The notes beneath the pieces were generated by a model. It did no database searches, had not been told where the DNA came from, and saw nothing but the letters and a program-made list of their open reading frames with translations. From Candidatus Helarchaeota archaeon (GTDB lineage: Archaea > Asgardarchaeota > Lokiarchaeia > Helarchaeales > HEL-GB-A), in NCBI GenBank assembly GCA_016840125.1, contig JAEOSY010000078.1, positions 1 to 7,525 on the forward strand: a stretch of DNA of 7,525 bases, written 5' to 3'. Below are positions 1 to 7,525 of the stretch, in pieces (positions within the stretch are counted from its first letter, which is position 1; each line of letters begins with the position of its first letter). Made by a program: the position numbers and the translations under genes.

Positions 1-995
1 TCGATATTGATTTAATAAATGATCCATTAGGTATAGATTCAAATGATAAGTTAGTTTATTTGAAAGACATTTGGCCGAAGCGAGAAGAAATTTCTAAACT
101 AATAAAAGAATATGTTACCTCTAAAATGTTTAAGGATGAATATTCAGAGGTTTTTGAGGGAACCCAACTTTGGAAGGACCTAATTATTCCAGATGGAGAA
201 ATTTATGATTGGAATTCAAACTCTACTTATATTCAAGAACCTCCATTCTTTATAGGTTTGCCTATTACCCCTTCAGCCAGCCAAAACATAAAGAACGCCC
301 GTGTTTTAGCATTACTTGGTGACACTATCACAACAGATCACATTTCACCAGCGGGAGCTATCCCTTCAGCTGATCCAGCAGGAAAATATTTAATCTCCAA
401 AGGCATCCAGCTAAAAGATTTCAATTCATTTGGATCACGACGAGGAAATCATGAAGTGATGATGCGTGGGACGTTTGGAAATATCCGCCTTAAAAATCAG
501 TTAACTCCCAATAAAGAAGGGACTTGGACAAAATACTTTCCGAGTAACGAGATCATGGCAATTTATGATGCAGCTATGCGATACAAAAAGGATAATATCC
601 CATTAATTATTCTAGCAGGTAAAGAGTATGGTACGGGAAGCTCTAGAGATTGGGCTGCTAAGGGTACTTATCTGCTAGGAATAAGAGCAGTAATCGCTGT
701 ATCTTACGAAAGAATTCACCGGAGCAATCTAGTAGGAATGGGAGTACTTCCATTACAATTTATAAATGGCGAATACTCTGAGAAATTGGGTTTAACAGGT
801 GAAGAAATTTTCGATGTTTATGGAATAGACGATATGGAACCAGCTAGTATACTCGATGTAATTGCAAAAGATAAGGAAGGAGTTGAAAAGATTTTTAAAG
901 TCAAATTACGTCTGGATACTCCTGTTGAGGTAGAATATTACCGAAATGGGGGAATTCTCCACACAGTCCTTCGAAATATGATCAAAAATACATGA
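1..995 (+). CDS. acnA: Aconitate hydratase (AcnA/IRP1-type), C-terminal part, 5' truncated by window edge
   Basis: This is the C-terminal third of aconitase, which isomerises citrate to isocitrate in the TCA cycle. The reading frame is open from base 3, and the first residues (DIDLINDPLG, then VYLKDIWP) already match the family, so the TTG at 60 is an internal Leu codon and not a start. About 330 residues are visible; AcnA-type enzymes are about 900. The swivel domain shows TTDHISPAGAI (from about 330), the substrate-binding arginines in GSRRGN (nt 432-449) and MRGTFGNIRL (from about 462), and the GTGSSRDWAAKG loop (from nt 630) with the catalytic serine and arginine. The C-terminus, VEYYRNGGILHTVLRNM, is typical and complete. 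The [4Fe-4S] cysteines lie upstream of the window. No damage is seen. The stop TGA (993-995) overlaps an ATG at 992-994, an ATGA arrangement of the kind seen in coupled operons; the following gene is a relic. Confidence 0.96.
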   Translation, partial: DIDLINDPLGIDSNDKLVYLKDIWPKREEISKLIKEYVTSKMFKDEYSEVFEGTQLWKDLIIPDGEIYDWNSNSTYIQEPPFFIGLPITPSASQNIKNARVLALLGDTITTDHISPAGAIPSADPAGKYLISKGIQLKDFNSFGSRRGNHEVMMRGTFGNIRLKNQLTPNKEGTWTKYFPSNEIMAIYDAAMRYKKDNIPLIILAGKEYGTGSSRDWAAKGTYLLGIRAVIAVSYERIHRSNLVGMGVLPLQFINGEYSEKLGLTGEEIFDVYGIDDMEPASILDVIAKDKEGVEKIFKVKLRLDTPVEVEYYRNGGILHTVLRNMIKNT

Positions 996-1007
996 ATCCT
1001 TTAGGTT

Positions 1008-1184
1008 TTGGACGGTGAAAGTTGGCACGTTGAAGAATTTAATACCACCATAGTAGGCGGTGACCTTAGGGGATTGCGTGTATGATTAGAATTATGAAGT
1101 AAATGGAATGTAGCAGTTATTAGTAAATCTTTTCTGGTTAGAAGTCACTCTGATGCAGCTCAATGGGGTGTATTTACCGATTGA
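1008..1184 (+). pseudogene. Decayed N-terminus of succinate dehydrogenase/fumarate reductase flavoprotein subunit
   Basis: This is not an intact gene. Translating the frame that starts at 1008 gives EEFNTTIVGGDLRGLRV, stop, LEL, stop, SKWNVAVISKSFLVRSH, SDAAQWGVFTD, stop. It aligns without gaps to the SdhA/FrdA N-terminus, which has the form DVVIVGGGLAGLRAALEA, then VAVISKxxPTRSH, then xAAQGG. The third glycine of the FAD-binding GGG motif is Asp and the AG is RG. The AAQGG motif, whose neighbouring His normally carries covalent FAD, reads AAQWG. In-frame stops lie at 1083-1085, 1095-1097 and 1182-1184. The original start is uncertain: an ATG at 992 overlaps the aconitase stop but is in another frame, and a TTG at 1008 is in frame. 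Only about 55 of roughly 570 codons remain. The identification rests on motif recall, not on a search. Confidence 0.82.
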
Positions 1185-1193
1185 TAAATTTTT

Positions 1194-1215
1194 AATACAA
1201 TTGATATATTGTATT
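1194..1215. repeat. Perfect 8-bp inverted repeat at the sdhA/sdhB relic junction
   Basis: AATACAAT (1194-1201) and ATTGTATT (1208-1215) are perfect reverse complements separated by six bases. The element lies where recognisable SdhA sequence stops and SdhB sequence starts, inside or beside the inferred deletion join. It could be a deletion-prone hairpin, an operator or an AT-rich coincidence. No function is assigned. Confidence 0.5.
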
Positions 1216-1445
1216 GTTTGTGGAACAAAGACTATTTAGGACCTGCGGCATTAGCGAAAGCCTACCGTTTTATCGTAGATTCTCGAGTAGCAAAATAGCA
1301 TCGTGAGGAATGTTTGAAACGATCTACACAGAGCGATGTTGTACCAGCCTATGAAAGGATATTCGCCGGTAATGCCGTATATCCCAAGGGTGTAAAACCC
1401 AGCACAGCAATTGCGTTAATCCGTAAAAGAAGTGAAGAAAAATGA
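1206..1445 (+). pseudogene. Decayed C-terminus of succinate dehydrogenase/fumarate reductase iron-sulfur subunit
   Basis: In the same frame as the SdhA remnant, this segment reads WNKDYLGPAALAKAYRFIVD, SRVAK, stop (1296-1298), HREECLKR, then AYERIFAGNAVYPKGVKP and STAIALIRKRSEEK. This matches the SdhB C-terminal helical domain, WNPDxxxGPAxLxxAYRFxxDSR, and its cluster motif CxxIxxCxxVCPKGxxPxxAI. The three cysteines of that motif are replaced: Tyr at 1350-1352, Gly at 1368-1370 and Tyr at 1380-1382. The two Cys-to-Tyr changes fit single G-to-A transitions. The final TGA (1443-1445) overlaps the fumarase ATG, which shows that sdhB was once translationally coupled to fumarase. A functional product is very unlikely. 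About 80 of roughly 240 codons survive. Confidence 0.87.
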
Positions 1446-2833
1446 AAGGTATCACTAGAAAAGAAAAGGATTTCCTAGGCGAAATAGAGGTCCCTATAGC
1501 CGCCTATTGGGGAACAACAACTCAAAGAGCTATTCAGGATTTCCAGATCAGCGATAAAAAATTTCCAACTGCCTTTATCTTAGCATTAATCACTGTCAAG
1601 AAAGCCTGTCTTATGGCGAATCTTGAAATTGGCAATATAGACAAGGAAGAAGCACATGCCGTTTTTCAGGCACTCGAAGAAATCCTTGTAGAAAATAAAT
1701 ACCTTGACCAATTCCCAATTGATGTTTTTCAAACCGGCTCAGGAACCCAAATTAATATGAATGCTAATGAAGTCCTTGCTAATAGGGCAAATGAGTTACT
1801 TGGAAAACCACTAGGCACTAAATCTCCAGTGCATCCAAATGACCATGTGAATAAATCTCAATCATCAAATGACGTGATTCCCACAGCAATGCATCTTGCA
1901 GTCATATCTCAAATGCACAAACGCCTTTTCCCTGCTTTAAATAACTTGAGTGAGGCACTCGAACAGAAAATCGACGAATTCAAAGATATTATCAAAGTTG
2001 GTCGAACGCACCTTCAAGATGCAGTTCCAATCCCAATGGCTACTGAGTTTGAAGTTTATTTACGGCAAGTCGAGCTTAATAGGGATCGGTTGGATGATGT
2101 TCGCGAGGAATTATTGTTGATCCCTATTGGTGGAACGGCACTAGGAACCGGTATTAATGCAGATAAGAAGTTTGGAGAATTAGCTGTTTTATATCTCCAG
2201 GATCTCACGGGATTACCTTTCAATCTTAATCCTGTTAAAGCCGAAGGGATTGCATCCCACAATGTATTAGTTAATGCAAGCGGGAATATGCGTCTAATAT
2301 CACTCTCACTTATAAAAATGGCAAATGATATTCGTTGGATGGGAAGTGGTCCTCGAGCGGGCTTAGGCGAATTAATACTCCCTGTAAATGAGCCAGGCTC
2401 ATCAATAATGCCCGGGAAAGTTAACCCAACTCAAGCAGAAGCACTAATCCAAGTGTGTCTTCAAGTTATAGGAAATGATACAGTTCTCGCATATGCCGAA
2501 GGATTGAGTAGTATCCTTGATCTAAATGTAGCAAAACCAGTTATGATTGTTAATCTACTTGAATCAATCAAGATTTTATCAACCGGAATCAATTCTTTTG
2601 TGGAGAAGTGTTTAATTGGTATACAAGCTAATTTTGATCAAATTAATGCTCAGTTAAATAGAGTTTTAATGATTGTAACAAATCTTGTTCCTCTAATCGG
2701 ATATGATAAAGCATCAGAGATTGCGCAGATCGCCTATAAAACAGGGAAAACGATAAAAAGCGTTATTCAAGAAAAAGGGCTCGAAATTGAGGGGGATTTA
2801 GATGAACTCCTCGACCCCAAGAAAATGGTCTGA
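1442..2833 (+). CDS. fumC: Class II fumarate hydratase
   Basis: This enzyme reversibly hydrates fumarate to L-malate in the TCA cycle; it is a cytosolic, iron-free homotetramer of the aspartase/fumarase superfamily. Its 463 residues match the family length. Visible motifs are GSGTQINMNANE (99-110), HPNDHVNKSQSSND (131-144), GRTHLQDA (187-194) with the general-base His190, GGTALGTGIN (230-239), GSGPRAGLGEL (301-311) and the signature GSSIMPGKVNP (319-329) with the catalytic serine loop. GSGTQ, the His in GRTHLQDA (Gln in aspartases) and NPTQAEA after the signature favour fumarase over aspartase. The segment NPVKAEGIASHN departs from the usual NKFEALAAHD. The ATG overlaps the stop of the upstream sdhB relic. 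The only Shine-Dalgarno candidate is weak purine-rich sequence in 1427-1440, so this gene probably depended on coupling. Confidence 0.93.
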   Translation: MKGITRKEKDFLGEIEVPIAAYWGTTTQRAIQDFQISDKKFPTAFILALITVKKACLMANLEIGNIDKEEAHAVFQALEEILVENKYLDQFPIDVFQTGSGTQINMNANEVLANRANELLGKPLGTKSPVHPNDHVNKSQSSNDVIPTAMHLAVISQMHKRLFPALNNLSEALEQKIDEFKDIIKVGRTHLQDAVPIPMATEFEVYLRQVELNRDRLDDVREELLLIPIGGTALGTGINADKKFGELAVLYLQDLTGLPFNLNPVKAEGIASHNVLVNASGNMRLISLSLIKMANDIRWMGSGPRAGLGELILPVNEPGSSIMPGKVNPTQAEALIQVCLQVIGNDTVLAYAEGLSSILDLNVAKPVMIVNLLESIKILSTGINSFVEKCLIGIQANFDQINAQLNRVLMIVTNLVPLIGYDKASEIAQIAYKTGKTIKSVIQEKGLEIEGDLDELLDPKKMV

Positions 2834-2881: not shown

Positions 2882-4084
2882 ATGCGAGTAGTAATAATCG
2901 GTGGGAATATCGCTGGAAGTAATGCAGCTGATATTATAAAAAGAGAAAATCCAGAAGTAGAGGTAGAAATCTACTCTGATGAATCTTATTTCAATTATAC
3001 TAGAATAAAATTACCAGCTTTTCTTTGTGGAATGTGTAAACAGGAGGAACTGACTACTTGTACTGCTCAATGGTATAAAGACAGAAATATTAAGTATAAT
3101 AGGAATTATCGTGCGACTAATATTCTACCAGATAAGAAAATAGTTCAATTTCAGAATGGCGAAGAAACAAGTTATGATAAATTACTTTTAAGTATAGGAA
3201 GTAAAAGTAATATCCTACCAATACCAGGCGCAGACGCAAAAGGTTTATTTACATTAAAAACTTTGGATGATGCCTTTAAAATTCGTTCCTTTGCAAGGAA
3301 CAAGCAGACGGCAATTATTATAGGTGGAGGGCTTTTGGGTCTAGAAATCGCGAAAAGTATTAGTGATCTGGGACCCACTATTACCGTTTTAGAATTTTTT
3401 CCACGATTGTTACCTAGGCAACTAGATGTTGAAGGAGCTGAGATGTTACAAGAAATCCTAGGTGATTTCAATATTCAAGTAGGTTTGAATGCTAGTACAA
3501 ATGAGATTGATATTGATGAGAAATTAATTGTAAGGTTAAAGGACAACAGGGAATTTGTAGCAGATATGGTTATAATGGCAGTGGGAGTGAAACCCAATAC
3601 AAATCTTGCCGCAGAATCAGGAATAGAGATTAATAGAGGAATAATTGTAAATGAACATATGGAGACAAGCATTAAAGATATCTTTGCAGCAGGAGATTGC
3701 GCGGAGTTTAATGGGCGCGTCTGGGGAATAATCCCCGTTGCTTTTGAACAATCTAAAATAGCCGCATTGAATATGTTAGATAAAAATATCAGCTACAAAG
3801 AGGTCGTACCTTCGAATACACTCAAGATCGTTGGTATAGACCTCACTTCAATAGGAAGGGTCACTCCTGAGGAAGATTTACCTGAGGAAATACGGTCTAT
3901 TGACAAGAACAAACGAACTTATAAGAAACTCGTACTTGAAGATAACCGAGTGGTTGGCGCTATTTTGTTGGGAGATCGAACCAACCAATCCACAATAATG
4001 AAGTTAATAAAAGATGGAACTAATGTATCTAAATTCAAGCAAAGAATCTTAGATCACGGTTTTGACTTGAAACAATTTCTTTAA
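2882..4084 (+). CDS. FAD/NAD(P)-dependent oxidoreductase (NirB/NADH oxidase-like pyridine nucleotide-disulfide family)
   Basis: This is a 400-residue flavoprotein that probably moves electrons from NAD(P)H to an unidentified acceptor in the cytosol. It has the two-dinucleotide-fold layout: an FAD motif GGNIAG (7-12), a LLLSIGS strand (102-107), a second Rossmann motif GGGLLG (148-153) ending in an acidic residue at LEFFPRLLP (Glu171 region) that suggests NADH, and the FAD-contacting IFAAGDCAE (267-275). A C-terminal domain of about 100 residues follows. It lacks the catalytic cysteine near residue 43 of CoA-disulfide reductases and NADH oxidases (the segment is YTRIKLP), which points to the NirB or rubredoxin-reductase branch. 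Unusually, a CGMC pair sits at 49-52 with another Cys at 60. AAGGA (2867-2871) is a good ribosome binding site before the ATG. It starts 48 bp after fumarase and is probably in the same operon. Confidence 0.85.
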   Translation: MRVVIIGGNIAGSNAADIIKRENPEVEVEIYSDESYFNYTRIKLPAFLCGMCKQEELTTCTAQWYKDRNIKYNRNYRATNILPDKKIVQFQNGEETSYDKLLLSIGSKSNILPIPGADAKGLFTLKTLDDAFKIRSFARNKQTAIIIGGGLLGLEIAKSISDLGPTITVLEFFPRLLPRQLDVEGAEMLQEILGDFNIQVGLNASTNEIDIDEKLIVRLKDNREFVADMVIMAVGVKPNTNLAAESGIEINRGIIVNEHMETSIKDIFAAGDCAEFNGRVWGIIPVAFEQSKIAALNMLDKNISYKEVVPSNTLKIVGIDLTSIGRVTPEEDLPEEIRSIDKNKRTYKKLVLEDNRVVGAILLGDRTNQSTIMKLIKDGTNVSKFKQRILDHGFDLKQFL

Positions 4085-4185: not shown

Positions 4186-4473
4186 ATGACCCTCAAAACG
4201 GTTGAAGGTAAGATTGCAACGCATAAGGTGAAACTTTATACGCTTAGCACTTGTATTTGGTGTAAGCGCTTGAAGAGCAAACTAAATGAGAGGGAAATTA
4301 CATATAGCTATGTCGATATTGATTTAGTTCCCTATGTGGAGAAGGAAGCTTTAAAAAAGGAACTGCGCCAAATAAAACCGCGTTTGGCATTCCCCATGAT
4401 GTTTTTGGATGAAAATTACATTCCAAATATGGAAATTAACCAAAAAATTGAGGAATTAGTTCGGGATGGATAG
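4186..4473 (+). CDS. Glutaredoxin-like protein (NrdH-redoxin type) with CIWC active site
   Basis: This is a 95-residue thioredoxin-fold thiol-disulfide oxidoreductase, probably cytosolic. The strand VKLYTLSTC leads into the redox motif C23-I-W-C26 at the start of helix 1. A conserved cis-proline follows at AFPMMF (Pro70), after ITYSYVDID, the usual second strand of glutaredoxins. The GG glutathione-binding signature is replaced by IPNME, so glutathione is unlikely to be its partner and an NrdH-like role is preferred. AGGAG (4173-4177) sits 8 nt before the ATG. The next gene, an FTR-type disulfide reductase, starts 22 bp downstream with its own strong ribosome binding site. The pair probably functions together, with the glutaredoxin as the disulfide substrate of the ferredoxin-linked reductase. 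That partnership is inferred from gene order; from memory, a similar reductase/NrdH pairing exists in methanogens. Confidence 0.86.
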   Translation: MTLKTVEGKIATHKVKLYTLSTCIWCKRLKSKLNEREITYSYVDIDLVPYVEKEALKKELRQIKPRLAFPMMFLDENYIPNMEINQKIEELVRDG

Positions 4474-4495: not shown

Positions 4496-4828
4496 ATGCC
4501 AGATGTTGAAAAGACGCATAAATATGTTATAATGGTTGCTGATCATCGAGGATGGGTTCTAGTTCCGGATAAATTTTTCTTAGATGGGCTCGTTGAAGGT
4601 TTAGCAATTAATCTGGAGCGATTTGGATATCGAGCTTGCCCCTGCCGGGAAGCTTGGGAAGATAAGGAGAAAGATCGGGATATTATCTGCCCTTGTGCCT
4701 ATGCAGAGCCTGATATCGATGACCATGGTCATTGTTACTGTAACTTATTCTTTTCTAAAGATTACATCGCAAAAGACGGACAGCCGAAACCAATCCCAGA
4801 GCGGCGTCCTCTTGAAAAAATTCCATAG
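4496..4828 (+). CDS. Ferredoxin-thioredoxin reductase catalytic-chain family protein (ferredoxin:disulfide reductase)
   Basis: This is a 110-residue iron-sulfur protein that takes electrons from ferredoxin and reduces a disulfide on a small redoxin. It carries the family cysteine pattern CPC-CPC-CxC: C48-P-C50, C65-P-C67 and C80-Y-C82. By homology C48, C65, C67 and C80 bind a [4Fe-4S] cluster, while C50 and C82 form the redox-active disulfide. The spacings (14 and 12 residues) differ from the plant/cyanobacterial X16 and X8, and the CHC histidine is Tyr, with a His just before (GHCYC). The N-terminal half is helical, as in the family, and the C-terminus is a Pro/Lys-rich tail. GGAGG (4483-4487) gives a strong ribosome binding site. 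No variable (beta) chain is visible nearby, consistent with archaeal and anaerobe-type single-subunit reductases. Confidence 0.9.
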   Translation: MPDVEKTHKYVIMVADHRGWVLVPDKFFLDGLVEGLAINLERFGYRACPCREAWEDKEKDRDIICPCAYAEPDIDDHGHCYCNLFFSKDYIAKDGQPKPIPERRPLEKIP

Positions 4829-4883: not shown

Positions 4884-5792
4884 TTAAACCTGAAAGACTA
4901 TCGTTAATAATAGCATTAAAATTAAACCGATCATTAGTCCTATTGTTGCCTGATGTTCAAATCCATGTTTATGTGATTCAGGAATTAGCTCATCAGATGT
5001 AATATACAGCATTGCACCGCCTGCAAAAGCCAGAAAGAAGGCAAGTACTGCCGAAGAAACGCTCTGCAGTAGGAAAATAGCTACCACACACGCGATGGGC
5101 TCAGCCATCCCTGAGAGGAAGGTTATAATAAGAATCCGTTTTCGAGAGTATTTACCTTGCAATAAGGGGACCGCAATTGCCAAACCCTCGGGGATATTAT
5201 GGAGGGCAATAGCAAAAGTCATACTGAAACCCAATCCTGCAGCCGCTAAAAACCCGACACCTAAGGCAATTCCTTCAGGTGCGTTATGCAAGGTTAAACC
5301 AATTACTAGAAGAATCCCAGAATATCTCATTCGCTTTTGAAAATCGAGAACTTTAGGACAGGCACATCCACATTCTGCGTTACACATTTCATCTTCCAAA
5401 TAGGGGCACTCAAACCACTTATCCTTATTCGGGCATTTGCACTCACGAGCACAAATGAGTTCCTTACACTCCTCTTTTCGATCTTGAGATGGTGCAAGCA
5501 CGTGAAGGTGGGGAAGTACTTTATCAAAAATTAGGAGGACTAACATCCCTGCTCCTACACCAGATATAATTATAAGAGCAATAACATAGACTTCATAACC
5601 CCCATTTAATAAAATCATACCCTCATCAATTAATCCGAAAGTGGCTACAGCTATCATCACTCCAGCGGCAAAGCCGACAGCCATATCAAAGTATTTCATC
5701 GAAAGTTTTTTATAAATCCCAATTAATCCACCGATACCAGTTGCAGCTCCTGCGATCAAACTAAGGATAATGGGTGTAACAAAATCAACCAT
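4884..5792 (-). CDS. ZIP-family metal transporter (GufA-like) with cysteine-rich cytoplasmic loop
   Basis: This integral membrane protein probably imports divalent metal such as Zn2+ or Fe2+. Its 302 residues show about eight hydrophobic segments. The paired metal-site motifs are HNAPEG (169-174, TM4) and HNIPEG (198-203, TM5), followed by the conserved GGAMLYITSDELIPESH (258-274). The TM3-TM4 loop (about 95-150), normally His-rich in ZIPs, has nine cysteines at 109, 114, 118, 120, 129, 137, 141, 143 and 145, plus an HLH. The start is set at the ATG at 5792: AAGGAG on the minus strand (5802-5807) lies 9 nt upstream, and the N-terminal hydrophobic segment begins right after it. An in-frame TTG at 5828 would add 12 residues that contain the ribosome binding site, so it is rejected. 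It converges on the FTR gene and diverges from iorA. Confidence 0.9.
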   Translation of the reverse strand: MVDFVTPIILSLIAGAATGIGGLIGIYKKLSMKYFDMAVGFAAGVMIAVATFGLIDEGMILLNGGYEVYVIALIIISGVGAGMLVLLIFDKVLPHLHVLAPSQDRKEECKELICARECKCPNKDKWFECPYLEDEMCNAECGCACPKVLDFQKRMRYSGILLVIGLTLHNAPEGIALGVGFLAAAGLGFSMTFAIALHNIPEGLAIAVPLLQGKYSRKRILIITFLSGMAEPIACVVAIFLLQSVSSAVLAFFLAFAGGAMLYITSDELIPESHKHGFEHQATIGLMIGLILMLLLTIVFQV

Positions 5793-5835
5793 ATTAAAAC
5801 GCTCCTTTTCAGCTAAAAAATTCTGCAATAATTAC

Positions 5836-5910: not shown

Positions 5911-7525
5911 TTGATTTCAGACGTTATATCGGATGAAAAATCGCAAGCATTCCTTTTTTGCAATGAGGCAATAGTACGGGGTGCTTTAGAGGCAGATGTC
6001 AAGGTTGTAGCATTTTATCCAGGATCACCCATATCCGAAGTTTTAGATACGTTCTATAAAATTTCAGATAAATTTGGAATTAAGATGGAAATTACAGCGA
6101 ATGAGAAAGTAGCTCTTGAAATTGTGGCGGGAGCTTCGATGGGAGGTCAGCGATCTTTGACAGCTCTAAAAAGTGTTGGGCTTAACGTAGCATCGGATGC
6201 TTTTTTTAGTTTAGGTTATACAGGCATAAATAAAGGATGTGTAATGGTTGTAGCAGACGATCCCTTTTGCCATTCATCTCAAAGCGAGGAAGACGGACGT
6301 TTTTTTGCACCCAATGCATATATTCCCATGCTAGAACCAACTGACCCAGTTGAAGCGAAGCAGATGGTGAAGGATGCTTTTGAAATCTCTGAAAAATATC
6401 AAACAATAGTGTTGATTAGAACAACCACTCGAATCAATCACCAATCCACTATCGTGCCTTTAGAGCCGATAAAAAGAACACCCTTTAAACCAAGTAGTTT
6501 TCGGGCATCTAATAAAAATTACTCTACTGTTGGCTCAAAAGCAAGGGAATTAAAACTTAAAATGTTAGATAGAACAAAAAAAATTTCATCAGAATTTGAG
6601 AATTCGCCATATAACTCCATTCATAAGGGTTCCTCTGAAATTGGTGTAATCGTGTCAGGAGTCTCTTATAATTATGTAAAGGAAGTCACGGAGAAATTGG
6701 AAATCAACCCAACTATTCTAAAACTAGGAACTACCTACCCATTACCTAAAGAACTTATCAAAAAGTTCATTAAAAACCTACAGAAAGTTATTGTAGTCGA
6801 AGAACTTTCTCCATATCTAGAACTTCATGTTAAGGCCTTAGCCAAAGATATGAATCCAGACCTTATAATCTTCGGTAAGGAGAGCGGACATTTTAGCGAA
6901 GCTTTTGAATATAACGTTCCAATAGTTCTTGAAGCTTTTTCAACAGCGCTCGGAATTGGAACTGAATTTGATTACAATAAGACTTTAAAAGAGGCAAATG
7001 ACTTAAAATCAATTTTACCCATCCGAATCCCTGTTTTCTGTCCTGGATGTCCCCATCGGGCAACATTTTGGGCACTTCAAAAAGCGCTAGCAGGAAAAGA
7101 AGGCAAAATCGCGTTGATGAATGATATTGGATGTTATTCAATGTTATTATTAAATAAAAAAATTTACTCTAAGATCCATTCTGACGATTTACTGATATGT
7201 ATGGGTGCGTGTTTAGGAACGGGGAGTGGAGTATCTCTCGCTGCGGAAGAAAAAGTCATCTCCCTAATTGGAGATAGTACGTTTTTCCATGCAGGATTGC
7301 CAGGAATGGTCAACATATGCAATAATCACGAAGATGTAGTAGTCTTCATCTTAGATAATTCTGTGACTGCGATGACTGGGCAGCAGCCTAATCCCGGCAC
7401 AGGTTATGGTGCAGGCGGGATTAAAAAAGCAAAAATAGATATCGAAAAGGTAGTAAAGGGTATTGGAATCAAAAATCTTCTAGTTGTTAATCCATTCGAT
7501 ACTAAAAAAGCAATCCCCCCTTTAA
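5911..7525 (+). CDS. iorA: Indolepyruvate:ferredoxin oxidoreductase, alpha subunit (3' truncated by window edge)
   Basis: This enzyme oxidatively decarboxylates indolepyruvate and related aryl-pyruvates to acyl-CoA, reducing ferredoxin, in the catabolism of aromatic amino acids; it normally works with an IorB subunit. The frame is open for 538 codons with no stop before the edge. The N-terminal pyruvate-ferredoxin-type domain shows NEAIVRGALEA (18-28), FYPGSP (35-40), ANEKVALEIVAGAS (63-76), SVGLNVASDA (88-97) and ADDP (115-118) with SSQSEEDGR (122-130). A middle domain spans about 240-350. The TPP domain has FCPGCPHR (376-383), NDIGCYS (404-410), GDSTFFHAG (454-462) and DNSVTAMTG (482-490), the thiamine-diphosphate/Mg2+ site. 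The C-terminal 2x[4Fe-4S] ferredoxin domain expected near residue 580-640 is beyond the window. No iorB is visible; it may follow. No defect was found. Confidence 0.94.
   Translation, partial: MISDVISDEKSQAFLFCNEAIVRGALEADVKVVAFYPGSPISEVLDTFYKISDKFGIKMEITANEKVALEIVAGASMGGQRSLTALKSVGLNVASDAFFSLGYTGINKGCVMVVADDPFCHSSQSEEDGRFFAPNAYIPMLEPTDPVEAKQMVKDAFEISEKYQTIVLIRTTTRINHQSTIVPLEPIKRTPFKPSSFRASNKNYSTVGSKARELKLKMLDRTKKISSEFENSPYNSIHKGSSEIGVIVSGVSYNYVKEVTEKLEINPTILKLGTTYPLPKELIKKFIKNLQKVIVVEELSPYLELHVKALAKDMNPDLIIFGKESGHFSEAFEYNVPIVLEAFSTALGIGTEFDYNKTLKEANDLKSILPIRIPVFCPGCPHRATFWALQKALAGKEGKIALMNDIGCYSMLLLNKKIYSKIHSDDLLICMGACLGTGSGVSLAAEEKVISLIGDSTFFHAGLPGMVNICNNHEDVVVFILDNSVTAMTGQQPNPGTGYGAGGIKKAKIDIEKVVKGIGIKNLLVVNPFDTKKAIPPL

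Follow-up and report, generated by a model that had tools for sequence, protein, structure and literature searches.

Complex II (SdhA/SdhB or FrdA/FrdB) and the thiol:fumarate reductase TfrAB of methanogens, which has SdhA- and SdhB-type subunits, are the described enzymes closest to the locus analysed here. A related phenomenon is the deletion-type operon pseudogene of prokaryotes, in which the ends of two adjacent genes are kept around a deletion, point decay has set in and the neighbouring genes are intact. For the Asgard archaea, the MK-D1 report includes an SDH flavoprotein subunit among the propionate-fermentation genes whose phylogeny was examined (PMC7015854), a study on Hermodarchaeota mentions a cytoplasmic fumarate reductase as well as SDH/FRD subunits (PMC8163825), and Heimdallarchaea have a complete TCA cycle according to a 2026 review (PMC12993045). 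No report of sdh pseudogenes or relics in Asgard archaea was found by title or by the start of the abstract, in a search that had most subscription papers outside its range.

The window, a stretch of 7,525 nucleotides from a Helarchaeota archaeon, carries a relic between its aconitase and fumarase genes whose ends match SdhA and SdhB models. Unlike complex II, the relic is interrupted, consists of the ends only, lacks the tail cysteines and is not an enzyme. TfrAB differs in another respect, since the relic-related SdhB frames of Lokiarchaeia comprise 253-291 aa and are without the long C-terminal extension. The locus shares the features of the deletion-type pseudogenes; here they are found in a Lokiarchaeia-like genome, at a locus of TCA genes, and other sdhA relics occur in genome G001 and probably in G063. 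We conclude that positions 996-1441 are almost certainly a pseudogene scar, namely an acn-sdhA-sdhB-fum run from which around 2 kb, between sdhA codon ~53 and sdhB codon ~156, has been lost. This conclusion is based on the homology at both ends, the missing middle, the stop codons, the lost tail cysteines, the gap in the Fe-S motif and the intact gene pairs of relatives.

The acn-fum locus

The window starts within acn (3..995, + strand), an open frame for the C-terminal 330 aa of aconitate hydratase (NCBIfam NF006757, 4.8e-143), the 5' part of which lies before the window. The class II fumarate hydratase gene fum (1442..2833, + strand) is an open frame of 463 aa, whose best NCBIfam match, TIGR00979 (2.2e-167), stays under the curated cut-off. 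An apparently empty stretch of 446 bp had been noted between the two genes, and this is the distance found between the end of acn at 995 and the start of fum at 1442. The GC content is even (acn 0.37, gap 0.39, fum 0.39). Both flanks are Lokiarchaeia-like, and G006 is the nearest for each among the five proteins compared per flank; the identity of the window's acn is 65% to G006, the highest of the five, 61% to G004, 60% to G026 and 55% to G002. Among the matches listed for fum in the named genome collection, the closest are two Lokiarchaeia records with 67% and 65% identity, and the other 78 fum loci listed are 45-50% identical and nearly all bacterial by title. These matches, together with acn, point to a Lokiarchaeia archaeon as the source of the window.

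Downstream of fum follow genes for a NirB-like FAD oxidoreductase (2882-4084), a glutaredoxin (4186-4473), the catalytic chain of a ferredoxin:thioredoxin reductase (4496-4828), a ZIP transporter on the opposite strand (4884-5828) and the alpha subunit of an indolepyruvate ferredoxin oxidoreductase, which runs past the end of the window (5911-7524). The frame at 4496-4828, which adjoins the glutaredoxin gene, is a weak match (57 bits, with a cut-off of 160) to FtrB, a double-selenoprotein family. A ferredoxin:thioredoxin reductase/glutaredoxin-like pair is also located about 8 kb or less from fum in G029 and G030.

Remnants of sdhA and sdhB

Two profile HMMs were built from intact Lokiarchaeia proteins, A1 from 12 SdhA and A2 from 13 SdhB sequences, with the window in neither, and both were searched against 67 sequences. 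A1 matches 1026-1172 (iE 1.8e-14) across two stops and A2 matches 1224-1430 (iE 6.8e-19) across one stop; one mononucleotide-shuffled version of the 67 sequences gave no match at 0.01 with either model. Searches of NCBIfam returned SdhA models for the first half, the best being TIGR01812 (8.9e-7, 27.7 bits, residues 15-56, profile 3-45 of 568), and SdhB models for the second half, the best being NF004616 (1.2e-11, profile 163-232 of 238). Homology to SdhA (TIGR01812) and to SdhB (NF004616/TIGR00384) is therefore present; a full-length SdhA is not, as the 27.7 bits stand against a curated cut-off of 567.3 and about 52 of some 570 residues are covered, with two stops. Scores far below the NCBIfam cut-offs are expected for fragments. 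The SdhA/SdhB similarity anticipated for a profile search was hence seen with NCBIfam and with the Lokiarchaeia HMMs but not with Pfam, which yielded no family for the gap read through or for either half; we take this null result as insensitivity to short fragments, because the other models match. In BLAST searches of the fragments against the open reading frames of relatives, identity reached 65% for SdhA N-termini and 55% for SdhB C-termini. At the DNA level, alignments of the two pieces to G006 score 93 and 90, and the shuffled controls (500 each) reach at most 42 and 40; the match to the G006 sdhA gene spans 1030-1182. No similar DNA was found in the plasmid collection.

The Lokiarchaeia SdhA HMM, the alignments and the G006 DNA match place the relic of the sdhA 5' end at 1023..1179 (+ strand; SdhA residues ~1-52, end approximate), where it is co-linear with its relatives and ungapped over about 50 residues. 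The alignment to G006 puts the large-deletion junction at about 1177..1183 (+ strand), without fixing the exact base. A second frame takes over at about 1180 and reads IDKFLIQLIYCIVCG, the counterpart of which is LIYCILCG in the SdhB of G006 and LIYCILCGLCW in relatives; this piece of the SdhB Fe-S motif region occupies 1180..1224 (+ strand, left end approximate). A second deletion of about 31 nt within SdhB lies at 1223..1224 (+ strand; precise to a few bases in the alignment), between TGTGG and AACAAAGACTAT, with which the rest of the CxxCxxC motif was lost and the frame shifted. Downstream of it, SdhB resumes in the first frame as NKDYLGPAALAK, and the relic of the sdhB 3' end (1224..1445, + strand; SdhB residues ~183-255 by the Lokiarchaeia SdhB HMM) runs to the TGA at 1443-1445. 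About 50-52 N-terminal residues of SdhA and 70-90 C-terminal residues of SdhB are thus retained.

The original prediction described an SdhA N-terminus followed by an SdhB C-terminus in a single frame, that of position 1005. Both ends are there, and every peptide that it quoted lies in this frame; however, the motif at 1180-1224 is in another frame, so that the relic is not all single-frame and SdhB is split over two frames. The term sdhA-sdhB fusion is apt in that the ends of both genes are joined, but the locus is a deletion scar and not a fused gene. The size estimated for the missing part, about 2 kb, agrees with the roughly 2,027 bp that the retained ends (SdhA ~codon 53 to SdhB ~codon 156) enclose in G006, in the place of which the window has the junction.

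At the right end of the relic, the ATG of fum overlaps the final TGA of the relic frame as ATGA. An 8-nt overlap of sdhB and fum (ATGAATGA) is present in G031 and G032, and G009 has no overlap of this kind. To judge from this arrangement, the 3' end of sdhB may persist partly for containing the translation start region of fum.

Intact SdhAB pairs in related Lokiarchaeia

The class of G002, the Lokiarchaeia, was surveyed with 83 genomes. A fumarase of the same type, 60-71% identical to that of the window, is encoded by 47 of them (a 42% match in G005 is excluded), and all 13 genomes with a relic-related SdhAB pair fall within these 47. SdhA is complete in 12 of the pairs and is cut by a contig end in G055. 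In G006, genes for an FMN enzyme and a citrate synthase-like protein are followed by acn, sdhA and sdhB, with fum on another contig, and G031, G032 and G009 have an intact sdhA-sdhB-fum arrangement. Intact orthologues therefore stand at a comparable place, and the proposed large deletion and point decay of sdhA-sdhB between acn and fum fit the tests. Of the intact acn-sdhAB-fum cluster expected in relatives, the two halves acn-sdhA-sdhB and sdhA-sdhB-fum were recovered, but the four genes were not seen as one run in any neighbourhood examined. The ancestral order at the locus of the window would have been acn-sdhA-sdhB-fum.

The run in G031 comprises the genes for a 2-oxoacid:acceptor oxidoreductase beta subunit, sdhA, sdhB, fum, an FMN-dependent lactate-dehydrogenase-like enzyme, citrate synthase and acn. 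The next upstream open reading frame (609 aa) matches no NCBIfam family at 1e-10, and the gene at the same place in G008 and G009 is a weak match (24-25%) to the indolepyruvate oxidoreductase of the window; an alpha subunit is therefore likely at this place, and the frame in G031 may encode one. A divergent succinyl-CoA ligase beta-like gene, just below its cut-off, stands next in G009. Within the clusters of G031, G032 and G009, the stretch from the 2-oxoacid oxidoreductase beta gene through sdhA and sdhB to fum has no intervening open reading frame of at least 70 aa that could encode a membrane anchor. The G006 proteins match PDB 1nek_A (6.6e-158) and mitochondrial SDHB chains (best 2.6e-40). 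In the intact SdhB of L129, L147 and other loci, the Fe-S motif reads CILCGLCWACP (CILCGLCWTCP in G006), which is one residue shorter than that of solved SDHB, CILCACCSTSCP.

A different SdhA (39-40% identical) together with a 526-aa SdhB-like open frame is found at L150, L151, L152 and L153. To judge from the length of this frame and from the nature of TfrB, the pair might be of the TfrAB kind. The scar could be a true fossil and still be uninformative about the cycle of the organism if another sdhAB or such a thiol:fumarate-reductase-like pair existed elsewhere in the genome, an alternative that we consider unlikely, though it deserves weight. The 526-aa frame and its SdhA partner occur in four of the 83 genomes (G019, G028, G029 and G049), SdhA homologues of about 600-640 aa are present in several genomes including G031 and G032, and G032 has both an intact pair and an sdhA fragment on another contig; yet none of the 13 genomes with an SdhAB pair contains a second A1 match above 300 bits. 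Under the preferred reading, by which the pair was deleted at this locus, the SdhAB enzyme would have been lost and not moved.

Decay of the remnants

There is no long open frame in the gap, and key residues are lost, as expected of a pseudogene. As predicted, the frame of 1005 is interrupted by five internal stops (TGA 1083, TGA 1095, TGA 1182, TAA 1185 and TAG 1296) ahead of the TGA at 1443, and a tandem TGA-TAA stands at the large junction. One glycine of the GxGxxG run of SdhA has been replaced by Asp (G16D, A1 column). In the SdhB tail, three cysteines that are invariant in 13 relatives, and which we take to be ligands of the Fe-S clusters, are substituted (C228Y, C234G and C238Y, A2 columns); they align with cysteines of solved SDHB chains. 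The full set of Fe-S cysteines of an SdhB is not retained, with the tail positions substituted, the CxxCxxC motif cut and the N-terminal part with the first cluster absent. The SdhA relic has Trp where 11 of 12 relatives have Met, and an in-frame TTG lies five codons upstream at 1008. The sdhA gene of G006 also lacks ATG, GTG or TTG at the usual start, and the missing start codon of the window is therefore weak evidence that was not used as proof. This G006 gene (L147, G006:C12, near 9156, - strand) is otherwise open and has only CTG or ATT at the usual start.

Altogether, 14 of 55 invariant columns are altered in the window (9 of 30 in SdhA and 5 of 25 in SdhB), the three cysteines included. 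When each relative was left out in turn, 8 of 12 SdhA rows and 9 of 13 SdhB rows altered no invariant column, and the maxima were 5 of 35 for SdhA (G006) and 3 of 28 for SdhB (G006 and G008). As G006, with an sdhA open over 571 codons, departs to this extent, part of the change in the window may be divergence. Over 122 codons, the relic differs from G006 at codon positions 1, 2 and 3 by 0.33, 0.25 and 0.57; the corresponding values between window and G006 are 0.27, 0.13 and 0.60 for fum and 0.29, 0.16 and 0.60 for acn, which the relic exceeds at positions 1 and 2. For the same sdh segments, comparison of G006 with six intact relatives yields 0.28-0.33, 0.21-0.25 and 0.47-0.60. The pattern of the relic is inside this range and does not discriminate, neither proving nor dating a loss of constraint; it shows that most of the relic's divergence retains the mark of coding sequence. 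A dating of recent decay by codon positions was dropped, as values like those of the relic are also seen among intact sdh pairs.

A 2-kb drop-out during assembly would yield a join of this size, and for this reason it has to be weighed whether the contig holds a collapsed or misjoined version of an intact sdhAB operon. Such a misjoin would bring intact pieces together at one point, whereas the window has stops in both pieces, cysteine substitutions and a second small gap; moreover, the even GC content and the common nearest relative of both flanks speak against it, and we regard an artefact as very improbable. Least credible of all is a living gene with stops recoded as selenocysteine or pyrrolysine, or a short functional product, protein or RNA, derived from the two sdh ends, since, even though selenocysteine recoding is reported for all Asgardarchaeota classes and pyrrolysine for one (PMC9723677), TAA is among the stops and in the tandem at the junction, the catalytic middle, part of the Fe-S motif and the tail cysteines are all gone, and no Rfam family matches the window at the gathering threshold. 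The preferred reading of a deletion scar would involve this loss of about 2 kb together with point decay, and the order of these events can be proposed only provisionally.

Probable losses of SdhAB across the class

Two fumarase trees were computed with the window and 46 of the 47 fumarase genomes, omitting G064 with its fumarase fragment; G005 was added as a distant row in the first tree only. The window groups with G004 and G006 in both trees (support 100/96 in the first and 99/99 in the second), with G004 as its sister (97/82 and 96/49). By path length, the nearest to the window is G006 in the first tree and, by a hair, G047 in the second; the highest fum identity, 71%, belongs to the partial row G044. 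In G004, no A1 match above 272 bits and no A2 match at 1e-7 was found; its acn is on a separate contig without adjoining sdh, and its fum contig begins 142 bases before fum.

Changes of SdhAB were counted on the second fumarase tree, with every row lacking SdhAB taken as the other state. The carriers of the pair, 13 genomes, are scattered and require 10 changes, seven of which are forced by well-supported branches. With shuffled labels the mean is 11.6 changes, and 73 of 500 shuffles get by with the observed 10 or fewer. The distances of SdhAB and Fum agree in 12 genomes (66 pairs) with a Mantel r of 0.87, a value that none of 2000 permutations attained; this favours inheritance of the two together, followed by loss, over repeated gain. 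Against this reading, quick trees of SdhAB and Fum are not identical, as G031/G032 and G043 are placed differently. The patchy occurrence of SdhAB and the matching Fum distances suggest repeated loss of SdhAB, to which incomplete draft assemblies add false absences. G045 is essentially one contig of 3,343,605 bases (genome listed as 3.3 Mb) and has fum; no A2 match was found in it at 1e-7, and its single A1 match (241 bits, a 526-aa frame) is taken to be a putative L-aspartate oxidase, since most genomes have one match of similar length and score.

Further relics are found in the class. L118 (G001:C214, 9123-9293) is a relic of the sdhA 3' end (HMM 514-570) with TGA and TAA near its start and the last 52 residues open. 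It is located 53 bp from a long open gene that by eye resembles the gene after sdhB in G002, and G001 has no SdhB match at 1e-7. L182 (G063:C24, 10004-10072, - strand) is a 23-residue SdhA-like piece (iE 3.5e-4 among 67 sequences, 8.8e-6 among three). It adjoins an alpha/beta-hydrolase-like gene, named by eye, of the kind next to sdhB in G055; the piece is short and probably an sdhA relic. A second, diverged sdhA fragment of 60 residues with a TAA lies at a contig end in G032 (L179, G032:C148, 6131-6310, - strand), which also has its intact pair. L174 (G054:C48, 1356-1700, - strand) holds what is left of an acn C-terminus (residues 757-890, 66% identical, two stops) in the vicinity of fum and an alpha/beta-hydrolase-like gene, so that a further TCA gene is eroding at a fumarase locus.

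Biological meaning of the scar

The scar is real and belongs to a familiar category, gene decay. It is of value as direct evidence for a loss at a defined locus, and as one among several scars pointing to a repeated dismantling of SdhAB in Lokiarchaeia. An absent gene in a draft genome may be an assembly gap, and a scar with both ends shows the loss at the locus directly. The step between succinate and fumarate has been removed at this locus in one Lokiarchaeia-like lineage. Together with the relic in G001, which is clear, and that in G063, which is probable, the scar makes it possible to count and order the losses within the class.

On a broader view, an SdhAB without a membrane anchor at its locus, where genes for 2-oxoacid:ferredoxin oxidoreductase, fumarase, citrate synthase and aconitase once belonged to the same run, might be ancestral and in the course of being dismantled in Lokiarchaeia by many independent losses, with scars in several genomes including the window; we put the chances of this at about even. 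If such a dismantling is indeed under way, the opening of the TCA cycle in this lineage, which stands near the origins of eukaryotes, would become mappable genome by genome.
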